DNA of 33,045 nt from Minisyncoccota bacterium (GTDB lineage Bacteria; Patescibacteriota; Minisyncoccia; Phycocordibacterales; Phycocordibacteraceae): positions 1-33,045 of the forward strand of contig JAQUAU010000003.1 of the NCBI GenBank assembly GCA_028687085.1, given 5' to 3'. The position numbers and the translations under genes are program-made. Position 1 is the stretch's first letter, and the number at the start of each line of letters is the position of its first letter. Below are positions 3-31,445 of the stretch, one piece after another. The notes under the pieces were generated by a model. That model had not been told where the DNA came from, did no database searches, and saw only the letters and a program-made list of their open reading frames with translations.

Positions 3-1607
3 GCACTCGTCGTGTACCCGCAAGACGCGAACGATGTTTCTGAAATCGTTCGCGTCATAGGCGCCGAGCGGAGTCGAGGAGCCGACATATCGCTCGCGGC
101 GAGAGCGGCCGGCACCGACATGTCGGGCGGCCCGCTGACCACCGGCGTCGTCGTCTCCTTCACCAAGCATATGAACAAGGTGCTCGAAGTCGGCACGAAC
201 TTGGAAGCTCAACTTCCAAGTAATTCGAATTTGGAAGTTGAGCTTCCAAGTGGGTACGCAGTGACGGAGCCGGGCGTTTTTTATAGAGATTTCGAGAAGG
301 CGACGCTCGAGAAAGGGCTCCTGATGCCCTCCTACCCCGCAAGCCGCGAGATAGCCGCCATGGGCGGCATCGTCTCGAACAACGCCGGCGGCGAACGCAC
401 GCTCAAATACGGCAAGACAGAAAAGTATGTCGAAGAGGTCGACGTTGTTCTCTCTGACGGTTCGCAGGCGACCTTTAAGGCGCTCACGCCCGCCGAACTC
501 GAAGAGAAGAAGAAGCTGGAGACGCTTGAAGGCAGCATTTATCGCACCATGGACGCACTTCTCACCGAGCACGCCGCGCTTATCGAAGAACGCCGCCCGA
601 AGGTGTCCAAGAATTCTGCCGGCTACGCGCTCTGGAGCATCAAGGACGGCGACCGCTTCAATCTCGCCAAGCTTATCTGCGGCTCGCAAGGTACGCTCGC
701 CCTCTGGACGAAGGCGAAGCTCTCTCTCGTGAAGCCTAAAGAGCACCGCGCGATGCTCGTCATCTTCCTTTCCGACCTGAACATTCTCCCCGAGGTGGTG
801 AACCGCGTCCTGCCTCAAAATCCAGAATCGTTTGAGAGCTACGACGATCACACCTTCACGCTTGCGGTGAAGTTTATGCCGCAGATGCTCTCTCAGATGG
901 GGCTTGTGAAGGCCGCGCGGCTCGGCATCGACTTTATCCCCGAGGCGCTCATGGTCGCCACCGGCGGCGTACCGAAGCTTATCCTTATGGCTGAGTTCGC
1001 CGAGGACACTATCGAAGAGGCAGACCGCCGCGCGACAGTCGCACGCGATGCGCTTGCCGGTCTCGAGGTGCAGACCAAGATCGAAAAAGACGAGAAAGAA
1101 TCAGAGAAATATTGGATCGTGCGCCGCGAGAGCTTCAATCTCCTGCGCAAAAATCTCCACGGCCTCGTCTCTTCACCCTTCATCGACGACTTCGTCGTCC
1201 CGCCCTCGAGCTACCCCACCTTCTTGCCCAAGCTGAACGCCCTTCTCGACGAATATAAAGACAACATGATCTACACGGTTGCCGGCCACATCGGCAACGG
1301 CAACATCCACATTATCCCGCTCATGGACCTGACCAAGGAGGAGAATCGAAGGGTGATTCTGGAACTTGCACCCAAGGTCTACCAGATGGTCATCGAGGCC
1401 GGCGGCACCACGACCGGAGAGCACAACGACGGCATCGTCCGCACGCCCTATCTGCCGATGCTCTTCGGAAGCGAGATGATTGCGCTCTTTGAACAAACTA
1501 AACGGGCATTTGATCCGCAGAATATATTCAACCCCGGCAAGAAGGTCGGCGGCACCTTCGCCGAAATCACACGCGACCTGATCCATCCGGTGCCGCCAGA
1601 AAAGTAA
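3..1607 (+). CDS. FAD-binding oxidoreductase (glycolate oxidase GlcD / D-lactate dehydrogenase-like), 5' truncated by window edge
   Basis: Reading frame is open to the left edge (ALVVYPQDANDVSEIVR...); FAD-binding motifs ARAAGTDMSGG, GGIVSNNAGGERTLKYGKTEKYV; C-terminal GEHNDGIVRTPYLPMLFG...FDPQNIFNPGKK. Confidence 0.9.
   Translation, partial: ALVVYPQDANDVSEIVRVIGAERSRGADISLAARAAGTDMSGGPLTTGVVVSFTKHMNKVLEVGTNLEAQLPSNSNLEVELPSGYAVTEPGVFYRDFEKATLEKGLLMPSYPASREIAAMGGIVSNNAGGERTLKYGKTEKYVEEVDVVLSDGSQATFKALTPAELEEKKKLETLEGSIYRTMDALLTEHAALIEERRPKVSKNSAGYALWSIKDGDRFNLAKLICGSQGTLALWTKAKLSLVKPKEHRAMLVIFLSDLNILPEVVNRVLPQNPESFESYDDHTFTLAVKFMPQMLSQMGLVKAARLGIDFIPEALMVATGGVPKLILMAEFAEDTIEEADRRATVARDALAGLEVQTKIEKDEKESEKYWIVRRESFNLLRKNLHGLVSSPFIDDFVVPPSSYPTFLPKLNALLDEYKDNMIYTVAGHIGNGNIHIIPLMDLTKEENRRVILELAPKVYQMVIEAGGTTTGEHNDGIVRTPYLPMLFGSEMIALFEQTKRAFDPQNIFNPGKKVGGTFAEITRDLIHPVPPEK
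202..251. repeat. Nested in-frame inverted repeat in the FAD oxidase gene
   Basis: TTGGAAGCTCAACTTCCAA-gtaattcgaat-TTGGAAGTTGAGCTTCCAA; 19-bp perfect arms, each arm itself a GGAAG/CTTCC hairpin. Confidence 0.9.
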
Positions 1608-6681: not shown

Positions 6682-6717
6682 CACGCAAATAGAGTTATCC
6701 CCACAAATGGTACCCCC

Positions 6718-6755
6718 TATCCAAAATAGGGTGCGACCGCACCATATTTTGGATA
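6718..6755. repeat. Palindrome A of the CGACCG-core family (downstream flank of Cas2-like gene 1)
   Basis: TATCCAAAATAGGGTGCGACCGCACCATATTTTGGATA; near-complete dyad; ends 1 bp from the stop codon of the 6757-7344 gene; 31/38 identical to palindrome B. Confidence 0.85.
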
Positions 6756-6756
6756 C

Positions 6757-7344
6757 CTACAACGCGCGCAGTCCGAAATGCTCGCGTAAGTGTTTATCGC
6801 GCTCAAGCTGTTCTACGATCATGTAGAGCACATCTACGCCGATGCGGAAATTCGCTTTTGCAAGCGCTATAAGATCTTCGCAATCATAAGGATAAATCCA
6901 GGCGCTATCCTGGAGTCGTACGAATCCATATTCACTCATAAATAACCGCAACTGATTGCGAATTCCCCGGCGACGCTCGGGTATGTCGAAGAGCACTATG
7001 CGCCAACGACCATCCCAACGCCTCGGTTTCCGAGAACTTGCATCTCGCGCAGACTCAAGGGCGAGTATTTGTTCCCCCGCTTCGGTCACCCGTGCGTATC
7101 GCCTGCCGTTCCGCTCTTCAAATGTCACCAACCCTTTCGCAGCAAGCCGCCCGAGCGCGGTCTTCGCCTGGTAGTTGAACCGCGCACCCTTCTTATAGCC
7201 CGGCATATAGCGCAGCAGCTGTGCGGCGTTCGGCATAGTCGCGGCGACGAGCACGACGCCGCCAATGGCGACGGCGGCAAGGAGCCCTTGCTGGAATGCG
7301 CGCAATCTCCGAATTTTCTTTGCTTCTTTTTCAATAACTCCCAT
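6757..7344 (-). CDS. PaaX-like protein: N-terminal hydrophobic helix, winged helix, C-terminal Cas2-like ferredoxin-fold domain (copy 1)
   Basis: KGARFNYQAKTALGRLAAKGLVTFEERNGRRYARVTEAGEQIL (wHTH) then WRIVLFDIPERRRGIRNQLRLFMSEYGFVRLQDSAWIYPYDCEDLIALAKANFRIGVDVLYMIVEQLERDKHLREHF (Cas2/PaaX C-domain). Start taken at MGVIEKEAKK by alignment with the copy at 13932. Confidence 0.8.
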   Translation of the reverse strand: MGVIEKEAKKIRRLRAFQQGLLAAVAIGGVVLVAATMPNAAQLLRYMPGYKKGARFNYQAKTALGRLAAKGLVTFEERNGRRYARVTEAGEQILALESARDASSRKPRRWDGRWRIVLFDIPERRRGIRNQLRLFMSEYGFVRLQDSAWIYPYDCEDLIALAKANFRIGVDVLYMIVEQLERDKHLREHFGLRAL

Positions 7345-7368
7345 ATTCAGACATCTTCGCACAGGAAC

Positions 7369-7406
7369 TATCCAAATCAGAGTGCGACCGCATTGTATTG
7401 TGGATA
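7369..7406. repeat. Palindrome B of the CGACCG-core family (upstream flank of Cas2-like gene 1)
   Basis: TATCCAAATCAGAGTGCGACCGCATTGTATTGTGGATA, about 25 bp upstream of the start codon; paired with A. Confidence 0.85.
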
Positions 7407-12601: not shown

Positions 12602-13447
12602 TCACTCCTCATCCACCAGTTCAAGCCGATAGATATCAAACGAGTTGTCGCCCTCGAACATATCGGAGGGGTTCGGCAGATAGACACGCCGGCGCATAAT
12701 CTCTTCGGTCGCGTCGTGCAGTAGCCGATGAAAGACTTTAAAATCTTGAGCGTGCTTTGCAAAATCTATTTCATACCGCCTCATCTGCTTACGGCCATCG
12801 GCATTCCGCGTCTTCTTGCACTCGTAGACGATAAAGCGCCGCACCGGCTTGCCGAACATTTCTCGCACGGTGTAGTAATTAAAGAGCGCCTGAATGACGA
12901 ACAGCGACTTCGTCGCGCCGCCCTTGCTAAACGACGCCACGAACTTATGATCCACGATATCTACCGCGCCTTTTTCTACTTTTGATTCAACTACGAGATC
13001 TGAAATTGCTTTGATAGGAATGGGGAGCCCTTCCACCTCTACCACGCCGCGCACTTCGACGCCGAGCACCTTGTGCCGCGGCGGCCGCGCGAGATAGTAG
13101 CCGATAGCGCGCAGGTACTCAGCCTCCATATGCTGACGCTTCTCTCTCTTCGCTTTCTTAGTCTTCGCTGCACCAAAATTAATCTCGAAGTCGGCGACGT
13201 TGCGCACATATTCCAGCCCTTTTTGTATCGCGATATTCTTGGGCACTCCGCTATAGAAGTGTTCAAGCGCCTTGTGCCCGGCGCTCCCGACGACCGCCGC
13301 GGGTGTTGTCGGCGTGTCGTAGATCTCTTCGACATAGCGCTTGTACCACGCCAAAGGGTTCCTCAAAAACGCCATCAAGCTCGAATGGCTCCAGTGCTTG
13401 ATCGGCGCCTTCCTTTTCTTCGCGACGACTCTCTTCTTACGCTTCAT
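12602..13447 (-). CDS. PD-(D/E)XK (RecB/Cas4-like) nuclease family protein
   Basis: HWSHSSLMAFLRNPLAWYKRYVEEIYD, GSAGHKALEHFY, VDIVDHKF motifs. Confidence 0.75.
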   Translation of the reverse strand: MKRKKRVVAKKRKAPIKHWSHSSLMAFLRNPLAWYKRYVEEIYDTPTTPAAVVGSAGHKALEHFYSGVPKNIAIQKGLEYVRNVADFEINFGAAKTKKAKREKRQHMEAEYLRAIGYYLARPPRHKVLGVEVRGVVEVEGLPIPIKAISDLVVESKVEKGAVDIVDHKFVASFSKGGATKSLFVIQALFNYYTVREMFGKPVRRFIVYECKKTRNADGRKQMRRYEIDFAKHAQDFKVFHRLLHDATEEIMRRRVYLPNPSDMFEGDNSFDIYRLELVDEE

Positions 13448-13468
13448 ATGAGCAGTATACCAGATACT

Positions 13469-13496
13469 TGACGATACGCATGAAGAGTGTATAATA
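13469..13496 (+). promoter_or_regulatory. Sigma70-like promoter for the small ORF 13566
   Basis: TTGACG-16 bp-TATAAT. Confidence 0.65.
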
Positions 13497-13565
13497 GATA
13501 TGGCGATTAATTCCGTCTAAGACTCTGTTTCTTGGACATTTCCGGGTAGAACTTGGAGATTCATC

Positions 13566-13839: not shown

Positions 13840-13888
13840 ATTATTGTTTATCCATCCTGATTCCCTCACAACCCCCTCACACATGAAC

Positions 13889-13927
13889 TATCTCTAACTT
13901 GTGCCGACCGGTACATCTCTGGTGATA
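13889..13927. repeat. Palindrome C of the CGACCG-core family (downstream flank of Cas2-like gene 2)
   Basis: TATCTCTAACTTGTGCCGACCGGTACATCTCTGGTGATA, 4 bp from the stop codon; 33/39 identical to D. Confidence 0.85.
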
Positions 13928-13931
13928 CCCC

Positions 13932-14519
13932 TCATTGTTCGGTCGGAAGGTCAAAGTGTTCACGCAAATGTTTGTCGCGTTCAAGCTGTTCAACGATCAT
14001 ATACAATACGTCGGTTCCAATACGAAACTTAGCTTTGACGAGAGAGATGAGTTCTTCACAGTCATACGGGTATACCCAAACACTGTCTTGAAGCCGCACA
14101 AACCCATACTCCTCCATAAATCGCCGGAGTCGCACACGAATGCTTCTCCGTCGTTCTGGAATGTCAAAAATAACTACTCGCCAGCGTTTGTCCCATCGTT
14201 TTGGTTTTCGCGTGCTCGCATCCTTCAATGTTTCTAGCTCTAGCACCCGCTTCCCCGCGTCGGTTAGGCAAGCGTACTGCTTCCCATTACGTTCCTCAAA
14301 TGTAATGAGACCCTTTGTAACAAGACGCCCAAGCACCGACTTGACCCGATAATTTAATCGCGCTCCTTTCTTCTGCCCAGTGTAATACTTTAATATTTTT
14401 GAAAAATCTGGCACTGCGCCGATAGCGACCATAACGCCACCGACCGCGGCGAAAAGAAGCGCCTTTTGAAATGCGCCCCAACGCCGTCCTCTCCTTGCAG
14501 ATTGTTCGATGACACCCAT
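13932..14519 (-). CDS. PaaX-like protein: N-terminal hydrophobic helix, winged helix, Cas2-like domain (copy 2)
   Basis: MGVIEQSARRGRRWGAFQKALLFAAVGGVMVAIGAV...KGARLNYRVKSVLGRLVTKGLITFEERNGKQY...RWRVVIFDIPERRRSIRVRLRRFMEEYGFVRLQDSVWVYPYDCEELISLVKAKFRIGTDVLYMIVEQLERDKHLREHF. Confidence 0.82.
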   Translation of the reverse strand: MGVIEQSARRGRRWGAFQKALLFAAVGGVMVAIGAVPDFSKILKYYTGQKKGARLNYRVKSVLGRLVTKGLITFEERNGKQYACLTDAGKRVLELETLKDASTRKPKRWDKRWRVVIFDIPERRRSIRVRLRRFMEEYGFVRLQDSVWVYPYDCEELISLVKAKFRIGTDVLYMIVEQLERDKHLREHFDLPTEQ

Positions 14520-14559
14520 CTTTCATATGCTATCCCGTGTCTCTATTTTTCTGTATCAC

Positions 14560-14598
14560 TATCCACAACTTGTGCCGACCGGTACATCTTTGAGGATA
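14560..14598. repeat. Palindrome D of the CGACCG-core family (upstream flank of Cas2-like gene 2)
   Basis: TATCCACAACTTGTGCCGACCGGTACATCTTTGAGGATA, about 40 bp upstream of the Cas2-like start and about 10 bp from the divergent promoter. Confidence 0.85.
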
Positions 14599-14608
14599 CC
14601 TTGCTAAC

Positions 14609-16757: not shown

Positions 16758-18461
16758 TTAGATCCCAAAGGCGGCGAGACGTGCTGAAAGTTTTGCACAC
16801 TCGTTTTGAGCATGAATGACTAGAGAGGCGTCCCCCGATGCCTCAGCTCTGCGTAAATCTGCTACCGCTTTCTGATATGCCTCGCGGATAACCGCTTCTT
16901 CAAAGGCATTAAGAAGCTCGTCTCCCGCCCCCTCCTCCGGATTCTCACCGAACGTCTGCTCTGCATAGAACAGAGCTGATTCCGGAGAAGTGACAGGCGG
17001 CAGGTCTTGAGCCTCAGTAATTCGACAATACTCTGATTTGACGCGCTCTGCAAGCGACGTCCCGGGGTAGGCGTGTATAACCGCTATAAGCTGCTCCCGA
17101 CGTAGCTCAACCGTCGAGCGTGCGGCCGACAAGGTTCGACCTTGAGAATTCGGGGTTAAGGTCGAACCTTGAGTGGCCGCCCCGGTATTTTTCGGCAATC
17201 GATTGAGCGATTCGCGGACAGCTTCATTTGAGAGACTGAGGGTCCGGGCGGTTGATTGTATGAAATGTTCGCGCTCCATCGGGCTCGGGATAGCCAAGAG
17301 TAGCGGAAGAACGATACCCTCGGCGAGTCGCAAGAGGCGATGCGGGTCGCGCTCCCCTTCAGCGAGCTCAGCGAGGAAGAACTCCACGATAGGCTTCGCC
17401 TCGGTCACCCGCTTCGCGAAATCCTTCGGGTCTTCACTGATAAGATCGGCTGGGTCCTTGCCTTTCGGCAAACGCGCAGCCTTGACCCGCAGCCCGAGGG
17501 TGAGCGCGAGTGCCGCCGAGCGCGCGGTGGCCTTGAGCCCCGCCGGATCAGCGTCAAGGACGAGCATCAGGTTCTCGCTGAAGCGCTTCATCAGAGCGAG
17601 ATGCCTCTCGGAGAGCGCGGTACCCGAGAGTGCGATGGCGTTGCTGAAGCCGGCCTGATGCGCATGAATGACATCTATCTGCCCTTCTACGAGCATGGTG
17701 AACTTGCGCACGCGTATCGCCTCTTTCGCCATATCCATGCCGAAGAGGACCTCTGACTTGTGATAGAGCTCGGTCTCGGGACTGTTAAGATACTTCGCCT
17801 GTTCGTCGGCTGCGAGAGCTCGGCCGGTGAAGCCGACCACGCGCCCGGCAGCGTCGCGTATCGGGAAGATAAGCCGATTGCGGAAGCGATCGTAGTAGGT
17901 GCCTGGCTTGCCGTCGGCCTCTTTAACGAGCCCCGCCGCAAGCATCTCGGGCACCGTGAAGCCCTCGGCCGTGAGCGCCTCCAAGAGGGCGCGCCACGCC
18001 TCAGGCGCGTAACCGAGCCGCCATGCAATGATGGTTTCTGGAGTGAGCCCGCGACTCTTCGCATAGGCCTCAGCAGGACTCCCGGCGAGCTTGCCTGCGT
18101 ACCACTCGCTCGCGCGACTGATGAGCGCGCGCATCCGATCTATCTTCGATGCTTCTTCTTTACTCCTCCCTCCCGAATATTCGATAGTCACACCTGCCTT
18201 CTCGGCGAGGATCTTCATTGCACCCTTGAAATCCACCCCCTCCACTTTTTCAATAAAAGAAAATCCATCGCCGCCGAGTCCACACCCGAAGCAGTGCCAG
18301 CTCCCGCGCTCCGCGCTCACGTGAAAGGAGCCGGTCTTTTCTTTATGAAATGGGCAGAGCCCCACCATGCTCCGCCCCGCGCGGCGCAGCTTCACATAGG
18401 GCGCAATGATGTCCTGGATGTTCAGCCTTTCCTTTATCTCCGCCACCGTGTCCTTCGCCAT
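16758..18461 (-). CDS. dnaG: DNA primase
   Basis: [48 protein letters not shown] zinc finger; [28 protein letters not shown] Toprim. Confidence 0.96.
17130..17171. repeat. Nested in-frame inverted repeat in dnaG
   Basis: CAAGGTTCGACCTT-gagaattcggggtt-AAGGTCGAACCTTG; 14-bp perfect arms. Confidence 0.9.
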
Positions 18462-25746: not shown

Positions 25747-26454
25747 CTATGCTGTTGCCGCTTCGGGCGACTTCTTCGAATGGACATCAATGGCGTGCTG
25801 TGCAATCTCGAAGTATTTGTCGTAGCCGCCTGATGCGAGCCCGATTCGATGCAGTGTGTTGTAACGCCTGGTGAATTCAGCTTTCGAATTTCCTGCCAAT
25901 ATCTGCATCCGTTCCCGGTGCTCAGGAGACTTGGCTGACCTCACTCCTTCTTCCAGTCGGAGTACTTCTGCAGCGCAATCTACGAGAATACTGGTGCCGA
26001 TCTGCCTTATTGCTTCATCGTCGGTGTCAGGCAGTAGTAGTTCGAAACTTGCAGAAGTCCAACTACGTGCAAGATCAAGATGTTCGCAGAAATCAACGGC
26101 ATGAGAAATTGTCGCGTCGTCCACCTCTTCGGCCTTTCCTTCAAGAGCCCCGAGTATCACCATGGAGGCCATCGCGAGAAACACCGCCTGTGGTAGGTGC
26201 ACGAACCAGTTCCCCATTCCTTCCTTGTCAGTCACGACGCCCCATACGACAAAGCCGAGAAGAACGAGAAGAACGAGAAGCATCATAGCGAAGCCCAGGA
26301 AACTTCTGTTTCTGTTCCTCCGTTTGTTTTCGACGATTTGCATCGCCGTCCTAACCGGATTGCTGCCGCCGCTGCGCATCCACGCGCGCTCGAAGAGTGG
26401 TGAGATCGTACGCTGGCGACCAAGCTTGGCTAGATATTCAATTGAAATGCCCAT
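25747..26454 (-). CDS. Hypothetical membrane protein
   Basis: 235-aa ORF with two hydrophobic segments (FLGFAMMLLVLLVLLGFVVWGVV; AVFLAMASMVILGALEG); clean terminator; no family recognised. Confidence 0.65.
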   Translation of the reverse strand: MGISIEYLAKLGRQRTISPLFERAWMRSGGSNPVRTAMQIVENKRRNRNRSFLGFAMMLLVLLVLLGFVVWGVVTDKEGMGNWFVHLPQAVFLAMASMVILGALEGKAEEVDDATISHAVDFCEHLDLARSWTSASFELLLPDTDDEAIRQIGTSILVDCAAEVLRLEEGVRSAKSPEHRERMQILAGNSKAEFTRRYNTLHRIGLASGGYDKYFEIAQHAIDVHSKKSPEAATA

Positions 26455-26624: not shown

Positions 26625-26679
26625 TATTTCTCCTTCCTCCAGGCATCAATCTTGGCGTGATGGCCAGTTTGAAGGACCG
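26625..26679 (-). pseudogene. Detached trmD 3'-end remnant (AVLQTGHHAKIDAWRKEK*)
   Basis: Minus strand GCG GTC CTT CAA ACT GGC CAT CAC GCC AAG ATT GAT GCC TGG AGG AAG GAG AAA TAG; matches the TrmD C-terminus KVLQTGHHANIDKWREKR*. Confidence 0.85.
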
Positions 26680-26680
26680 C

Positions 26681-26720
26681 ATGTTCCATAAGTAATGCGG
26701 TCGCACATGACATGGAACAT
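26681..26720. repeat. Palindrome E of the CGACCG-core family
   Basis: ATGTTCCATaagtaaTGCGGTCGCAcatgacATGGAACAT; its complement shares GTGCGACCGCATT with palindrome B. Confidence 0.75.
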
Positions 26721-26727
26721 CGATGTC

Positions 26728-26757
26728 TCAATTTTTGTCCTATAGGACAAAAATTGA
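26728..26757. repeat. Perfect 30-bp palindrome G
   Basis: TCAATTTTTGTCCTATAGGACAAAAATTGA, no spacer; lacks the CGACCG core. Confidence 0.9.
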
Positions 26758-26770
26758 TACAAGCGGTATG

Positions 26771-26800
26771 CCCTTATTTTGACGGTCGGCAAAATAAGGG
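26771..26800. repeat. Palindrome F of the CGACCG-core family
   Basis: CCCTTATTTTGaCGgtCGgCAAAATAAGGG. Confidence 0.75.
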
Positions 26801-26832
26801 AAAACGACTTCCCCACTTTGGATAAAACAAAA

Positions 26833-26854
26833 CCGCCCCGATGTTCCGGGGCGG
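26833..26854 (-). terminator. Rho-independent terminator
   Basis: CCGCCCCG-gaacat-CGGGGCGG then TTTTGTTTT on the minus strand. Confidence 0.85.
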
Positions 26855-26872
26855 CGCGGTTGTTGCGCGTGG

Positions 26873-27247
26873 CTAACGCGCGAGGGCAAGGGTAAAGGTT
26901 ATCTCGTTTTCTTTGGCCGTCATTGTGACCAGTATTCCCTTTTCAGAGTTTCGGACCGCGTCTTCGAAACAGAGGAGGAGTTGAGAACACTGGCAACGTT
27001 TGAATTCCTCCTCGAGACACTTGGCAAGATGGTAGTTATATTGCCAGTCGAACGACCCGAGCTTGAGGTGAAGATCCTTCGAGGTCGTCACCAGCGTGAA
27101 TTGCTCTCTCGAAGTCACGTCATCGATATACGTCCGATAAACCCGCGACTTATGTTCCAACGCTTCGGTCATACCTTTCCAGACCCACCACAGATGGGAG
27201 TTCTTATCTGCCGGGGGATTGGCGGTCGACAGTACTACTGTATGCAT
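26873..27247 (-). CDS. Hypothetical 124-aa protein between trmD and its detached tail
   Basis: MHTVVLSTANPPADKNSHLWWVWKGMTEALEHKSRVYRTYIDDVTSREQF...; upstream GGAGAA; clean terminator; the longer ORF in the track overlaps trmD. Confidence 0.6.
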   Translation of the reverse strand: MHTVVLSTANPPADKNSHLWWVWKGMTEALEHKSRVYRTYIDDVTSREQFTLVTTSKDLHLKLGSFDWQYNYHLAKCLEEEFKRCQCSQLLLCFEDAVRNSEKGILVTMTAKENEITFTLALAR

Positions 27248-27326: not shown

Positions 27327-28043
27327 CTACCTCTTTTCTCTCCACTTGTCAATGTTCGCGTGATGGCCGGTTTGGAGGACCTTGGGGACCTTATAGTTCT
27401 TACCCTTGTATGAAATCGTTTCGGGGCGGGTGTAGACCGCAGAGGAGGCGATGCGGCGTTCCTCAACGGAGGCGTCTTTACCCAAGACGCCGGGCAAGCG
27501 GCGCGTGACGGCGTCGACGATGGCGAGCGCCGGCACCTCTCCGCCGGTATAGACCGCCTCGCCTACGGCAAACTCCTTGACCGGCGCGAGCGTCTTCAAG
27601 ATCTTCTTCGCACGTTCGTCGATGCCCTCGTAGCGACCGCAGACGAGCACCACGTCACTATACTTCGCGAGCGCATCCGCGTCTTTGTTCGTGAACTGCT
27701 TTGCTCCCGGTTTAAACCACACAATCACCGCCTTCTTCCCTTTCTTTTCGCCCATGTAGGGTCTCGTAGACCCTACATTAGATGTAGGGTCTACGAGACC
27801 CTTCAATGCTTTCTGAACAGCTTTGATGATGGGGAGGGCTTGCATCACCATCCCCGGGCCGCCGCCGTAGGGGCGCTCATCTACCTTTTTATAACTACCC
27901 TCTTTCCCCGCGACGAAGTCGCGGGGGTTCTGATACTTTATTGAAATCTTCTTGTCCTTACGCGCGCGTCCGATGATTGACGCGCTCAAGTATGCGTCGC
28001 AAGCTTCTTCAAACAATGTGATGAGATGGAATTTGAGCATCAA
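27327..28043 (-). CDS. trmD: tRNA (guanine-N1)-methyltransferase
   Basis: KFHLITLFEEACDAYLSASIIGRA, RPYGGGPGMVMQALPI, VLVCGRYEGIDERA, EFAVGEAVYTGGEVPALAIVDAVTRRLPGVLG. Confidence 0.95.
   Translation of the reverse strand: MMLKFHLITLFEEACDAYLSASIIGRARKDKKISIKYQNPRDFVAGKEGSYKKVDERPYGGGPGMVMQALPIIKAVQKALKGLVDPTSNVGSTRPYMGEKKGKKAVIVWFKPGAKQFTNKDADALAKYSDVVLVCGRYEGIDERAKKILKTLAPVKEFAVGEAVYTGGEVPALAIVDAVTRRLPGVLGKDASVEERRIASSAVYTRPETISYKGKNYKVPKVLQTGHHANIDKWREKR
27754..27802. repeat. Nested in-frame inverted repeat in trmD
   Basis: ATGTAGGGTCTCGTAGACCCTACAT-tag-ATGTAGGGTCTACGAGACCCT; 21-bp perfect arms spaced by 3 nt, each unit itself a hairpin. Confidence 0.92.
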
Positions 28044-31442: not shown

Positions 31443-31445
31443 AAA

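Follow-up and report, generated by a model that had tools for sequence, protein, structure and literature searches.

Palindromic repeats associated with Cas2/PaaX-like genes in Patescibacteria: a candidate REP/RAYT-like system

To our knowledge, the only partner genes described so far for palindromic repeats are those of HUH transposases. In REPtrons, short palindromes are dispersed through the genome, palindromes of that type also lie on either side of one partner gene, and the gene and the repeat co-evolve (PMC8266576). REPINs provide a comparison system (PMC3116915), and REP palindromes bear GTAG/CGTC tags at their foot (PMC3733652).

We analysed a stretch of 33,045 nucleotides from a Minisyncoccota bacterium (the window), in which three neighbouring palindromes had been noticed, together with the rest of its assembly and the genomes of its relatives. 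Going by those relatives that are named, it is a Kaiserbacteria-like Patescibacterium. As in REPtrons, a partner gene is flanked by palindromes that are also dispersed in the genome, and gene and repeat co-evolve; the difference lies in the partner, which here has a Cas2/PaaX fold and is not an HUH Y1 transposase (PF01797). The best reading is a REP/RAYT-like system in which the partner is an unrelated protein, to which we assign a probability of roughly two in three. It appears to represent a small genetic element of a hitherto undescribed kind, made of a repeat and a partner gene, and no description of a system of palindromes and Cas2-like genes was found in the searchable open-access literature.

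Cas2/PaaX-like genes and their flanking palindromes

Four copies of the Cas2-like gene are present in the assembly, two of them in the window, both on the minus strand and each coding for 195 amino acids. The gene of unit 1 (13932-14519; PF20803, E = 8.4e-20) lies between two imperfect palindromes with the core CGACCG, one downstream at 13888-13930 and one upstream at 14559-14600. The gene of unit 2 (6760-7344; PF20803 PaaX_M, E = 1.2e-18) has a downstream palindrome at 6717-6756 (TATCCAAAATAGGGTGCGACCGCACCATATTTTGGATA) and an upstream one at 7367-7406, referred to below as palindrome B. All four genes have palindromic or near-palindromic repeats of about 40 bp with a C-N4-G centre on both sides, and each parent unit is one gene of about 190 codons with one such palindrome per side. 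The second palindrome directly follows the stop codon in most units.

In a sample of 287 genomes from across the phylum, the gene turned up in 91, commonly as several copies; the maximum was 11 matches per genome, and some matches contain stops. When palindromes with a score of at least 10 were sought in the 130 bp upstream and the 80 bp downstream, they were present on both sides of 50 of the 85 distinct Cas2-like genes with enough flanking sequence, compared with 0 of 85 control windows. The link to the two Cas2-like proteins of the window, which the original prediction had proposed, is thus borne out, as palindromes of the same family flank these genes both in the window and across Patescibacteria. 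The centres mostly belong to a few types, CGGTCG/CGACCG, CTATAG, CCATGG and CGATCG. Both palindromes could be scored in 63 gene/palindrome pairs; the identity of the left and right palindromes was 0.73 within one unit and 0.39 between units, and the type of core followed the protein tree (19 changes versus 35.6 after shuffling, 0/200).

In Pfam, the two window proteins matched only PaaX_M/Cas2 entries, with E-values of 1e-18 to 8e-20 for PF20803. The AlphaFold model of the unit 1 protein (mean pLDDT 76, low for residues 12-59) combines a winged helix with a Cas2-like ferredoxin domain. Among PDB entries, PaaX-type proteins and Cas2s matched best, none of them with E below 0.001, and a Foldseek comparison with SpCas2 (5zyf) gave a probability of 1.00 and an E of 0.02-0.03. 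The winged helix combined with a Cas2-like domain is shared with the PaaX repressors (PF20803; E. coli PaaX, 8a39; Rv0674, 3kfw), and recognition of a DNA dyad and autorepression are probably shared as well. Unlike PaaX, these proteins are below the full PaaX length, their genes have palindromes on both sides, and they occur in multiple copies with a patchy distribution; the full-length PaaX equivalog TIGR02277 was missed by a wide distance (35-37 bits, cut-off 264.55). The family is not PaaX proper.

The unit 2 protein just passed the NCBIfam cas2 cut-off (27.0 versus 24.5 bits), and family genes above this cut-off would be misnamed CRISPR Cas2. In Cas2, an Asp is situated after the first strand of the ferredoxin fold; the corresponding residue of the Cas2-like domain, D119, was invariant in 46 aligned sequences. 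Unlike CRISPR Cas2, the protein has an added winged helix and is encoded in a single-gene unit, no array lies beside the gene, and Cas1 is absent from 89 of the 92 genus genomes and in none adjoins these genes. Among the three genomes with Cas1 is the one studied here, where it is found on another contig (C68) with its own Cas2-like neighbour and an array. The system is not CRISPR adaptation. The locus on C68 (10801-14500), a contig that is possibly misbinned, is a type II-like CRISPR locus with the end of cas9 (inferred by eye), cas1, a separate cas2-like ORF at 13171-13533 and 46-bp repeats with a 76-bp period; a RAYT-like ORF and GTGAGGGCTTCAC palindromes lie between the effector ORF and cas1.

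Three palindromes between rpoB and trmD

The three palindromes are packed into 26681-26805. Palindrome E (26681-26720) has the core CGGTCG and 13/20 pairs, with the outer nine bases perfect; palindrome G (26724-26761), which belongs to the CCTATAGG class, has 18/19 pairs; palindrome F (26766-26805) again has the core CGGTCG and 16/20 pairs, 13/15 in its inner 30 bp (26771-26800). The predicted dyad centres, 26700.5, 26742.5 and 26785.5, were exact, as was the CGGTCG centre common to E and F. Palindromicity scores were 17.2 for G, 14.4 for F and 8.0 for E. In Markov shuffles of the whole window (n = 20), scores of at least 14 occurred 0.05 times and scores of at least 17 never, so that a chance origin of G and F is ruled out. 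E by palindromicity alone was not significant against the shuffles; what sets it apart is solely that the nine outermost bases of its arms pair perfectly and that its core is of a family type, and so it is weak on its own and fits the family plan.

The sequence that E was said to share with palindrome B is real, a 13-mer (GTGCGACCGCATT), and the E core TGCGGTCGCA is that of Cas2-like unit 2 (6717-7406). F is similar to another solo palindrome of this genome (contig C46, position 13346) and resembles the flanks of Cas2-like genes of the 'MGKLEE' type, e.g. L016. Near-identical copies of G, with no family gene nearby, were found in three related genomes (G089, G097 and G048). The arms had been called unrelated; in view of these relatives of F and G, they are not wholly so with respect to other sequence. 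Within the cluster, E, G and F are of three different core/arm types. We consider that E, G and F are probably solo copies of a dispersed family of ~40-bp palindromic repeats tied to the Cas2/PaaX-like proteins.

The spacing of 42-43 bp between the centres was measured as predicted. It is close to four helical turns, and it had been taken as a sign of a functional array, with three dimers of the two Cas2-like proteins binding cooperatively along the same helix face. We give hardly any weight to this explanation. The units are 38-40 bp long and are packed end to end with gaps of 2-5 bp, which by itself produces the spacing, and the periodicity is not conserved: the orthologous site in G089 has a single palindrome, and in the one further close pair of distinct classes that was found the spacing is 56 bp. 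The cluster also holds three palindrome types, and since the G type has no cognate gene in the assembly, it is unlikely that the same two proteins bind all of E, G and F.

The region is bounded on one side by the upstream side of the gene 25747-26454 and on the other by the intrinsic terminator of the gene 26873-27247, which lies on the minus strand at 26832-26855; by this location it is intergenic dead space. The palindromes were also considered as terminators and rejected, the real terminator being separate from them and beyond F. An Rfam search of the region for RNAs found none. Abutting E is a decayed second copy of the 3' end of trmD (26630-26680, minus strand; CTCCAGGCATCAATCTTGGCGTGATGGCCAGTTTGAAGGACC), recognised by direct reading against the intact end at 27340-27382, and a comparable relic of the trmD tail lies beside the palindrome of G089. 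In two other genomes (G078 and G048) the orthologous rpoB-trmD gap measures about 30-40 bp, and the palindrome of G089 in this gap is F-like.

Two further palindromic features were seen in coding sequence of the window. A 51-bp palindrome (ATGTAGGGTCTCGTAGACCCTACAT...) is inserted in frame in trmD at 27755-27805, and an imperfect inverted repeat of 42 nt, 79% complementary and without a spacer, lies at 2052-2135 with a stretch of CAGTAG repeats.

Solo copies and their sites

A covariance model of class G (R1) gave matches in 12 of 93 genus genomes. Two of these (G003 and G043) were left out of the solo count because their matches are flanks of a gene. The remaining ten, this genome and nine others, all carry Cas2-like genes (10/10, p = 3e-7), and the association was retained without the four genomes on which the model had been trained (6/6, p = 8e-5). 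The complete genome G023 has one Cas2-like gene, two flanking and seven solo class-G palindromes. Most of these solos follow the plan TGTNNNAATTTT..CCTATAGG..AAAATTNNNACA, and changes on one arm are matched on the other; in three with identical inner sequence, the outermost three bases differ and are still complementary (CAA/TTG, CAC/GTG, AAC/GTT). The G023 copies point to palindromic hexamers such as CAATTG, CACGTG and AACGTT as candidate targets. Symmetric variation was also evident in 20 distinct class-G copies, where 269 of 320 tested positions pair, compared with 200 after shuffling.

Genes for Y1_Tnp (RAYT) are widespread in the genus, occurring in 58 of 92 genomes and with eight matches in the one studied here, and the palindromes might be ordinary REPs spread by these enzymes, with the Cas2-like genes as mere neighbours. 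This is very unlikely: G023 has no Y1_Tnp and yet nine class-G palindromes, the association of solos with Y1_Tnp is weak (9 of 10 solo genomes, p = 0.085), arms and cores follow the Cas2-like protein and not chance neighbours, and the aligned class-G copies start with CTTGTATC or GATGTATC and lack the foot tags of REPs. The elements also differ from REPtrons in being dyads of 38-40 bp with a low copy number, about 3-10 per genome. Palindromic repeats of a second family (CAAGGTTCGACCTTG, TTGGAAGTTGAGCTTCCAA), for which the Y1_Tnp genes are candidate partners, are dispersed in this genome (window 199-251 and 17130-17171; contigs C58, C76 and C28) and occur in the miaA loop of relatives (L374, L379, L383-L385).

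In the genome studied here, a palindrome scan covering 895 kb of the 935-kb assembly gave about seven solo copies, including class-G solos that have no cognate short-form gene in this genome. Solos are intergenic or, in miaA, lie in frame inside the coding sequence, as does the copy at C51:4679. Related perfect palindromes occupy the same miaA loop in G040 and G050; in other genomes the loop is short or holds an unrelated palindromic repeat. Rickettsia palindromic elements (RPEs) are short palindromic repeats found in frame within protein-coding genes, and the insertion in miaA is similar to them in this respect. RPEs are longer, and we know of no Cas2-like partner gene for them.

Many units are located between genes that are adjacent or nearly adjacent in this genome, i.e. 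opposite empty sites (for instance L017 versus C17; L006 versus C75; L221 versus the window at 31443; L207/L216/L218 versus the rpoC-dnaG junction of the window). A base-exact empty site was sought in the pair G029/G037, but these genomes are only about 74% identical, and their 99.9% match is one contig shared by both bins. Neither an exact insertion junction nor a short target-site duplication of fixed length was resolved at the units. Four Cas2-like units (L032, L010, L208 and L169) lie between long direct repeats of host sequence, with lengths of 51 to about 300 bp and identities of up to 99%, which are comparable in kind to the second trmD tail beside the palindromes of the window and of G089. 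A REP/RAYT-like model does not account for these repeats; they may be a target duplication of great length, or may come from single-crossover integration of a circle carrying neighbouring sequence. An all-against-all BLAST found no near-identical gene copies at different sites, only vertical orthologues, which indicates that the gene unit moves rarely or slowly. A search of this genome for decayed Cas2-like genes beside the solo palindromes turned up the four intact genes only. In another genome (G001), perfect palindromes lie exactly at the ends of seven contigs (C4, C5, C6, C11, C19, C20 and C22), which indicates that these repeats break metagenome assemblies, and copy numbers are therefore probably underestimated.

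Palindrome anatomy and the proposed action of the protein

In 104 flanking copies, pairing by position from the centre was 92-98% at positions 2-4, 58-67% at positions 6-10 and 87-97% at positions 14-18, and dropped off at position 20. Such bipartite pairing corresponds to a two-fold protein site that is contacted both near the centre and further out. Of the 52 upstream copies, 17 had TATAAT on the gene strand, versus 6 of the downstream copies; in discordant units the numbers were 12 and 1 (p = 0.003). Many upstream copies extend into the start codon. As a -10 box or the start codon often lies within the upstream palindrome, autorepression is the natural interpretation, and DNA binding and autorepression by the Cas2-like protein are implied.

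The protein would probably act as a two-fold symmetric dimer, its winged helices reading the outer arms at positions 13-19 from the dyad centre and another contact reading the central C-N4-G. On the upstream palindrome it would repress its own gene; here the anatomy and the sequence are observed and the binding is what we infer. It might be asked whether the protein is only a transcriptional repressor, the flanks being its own operators and the solos, including E, G and F, operators of other genes. The family has a match to PaaX_M, PaaX itself being a repressor, the upstream copies contain -10 boxes or overlap start codons, and the bipartite dyad fits a protein operator. This explanation is nevertheless unlikely, since most units have the palindrome behind the stop codon, solos occur within the reading frame of miaA, E, G and F are more than 220 bp from the nearest start codon and behind a terminator, and the class-G solos of this genome lack a cognate gene.

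In the REP/RAYT-like reading, the protein, or a hairpin or cruciform that it recognises, would carry solo palindromes to new locations, a role like the one proposed for REP-associated transposases in the spread of REPs; that the protein causes this dispersal is inferred. Three units of three types would then have accumulated end to end in dead space beside the duplicated trmD tail. More tentatively, and somewhat short of even odds, the stand-alone winged-helix Cas2-fold protein could be the mobilising enzyme of a new minimal class of elements. Each would consist of a single gene enclosed by two palindromes; such elements would sow 40-bp palindromes across the genomes of Patescibacteria and, on occasion, duplicate the 3' end of the gene next to the insertion. 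If so, these elements would be the Cas2-based counterpart of the HUH-based REPtrons, with a possible link from mobile elements or repressors to the Cas2 of CRISPR adaptation.

The Cas2-fold partner occurs in a phylum with tiny genomes, which have no obvious reason to keep the gene. If the protein only binds, the dozens of gene/palindrome pairs would still be a clean natural experiment in the co-evolution of protein and DNA. If it moves or copies the palindromes, it would be a Cas1-independent, mobile-element relative of Cas2 that bears on the origin of the CRISPR integrase.
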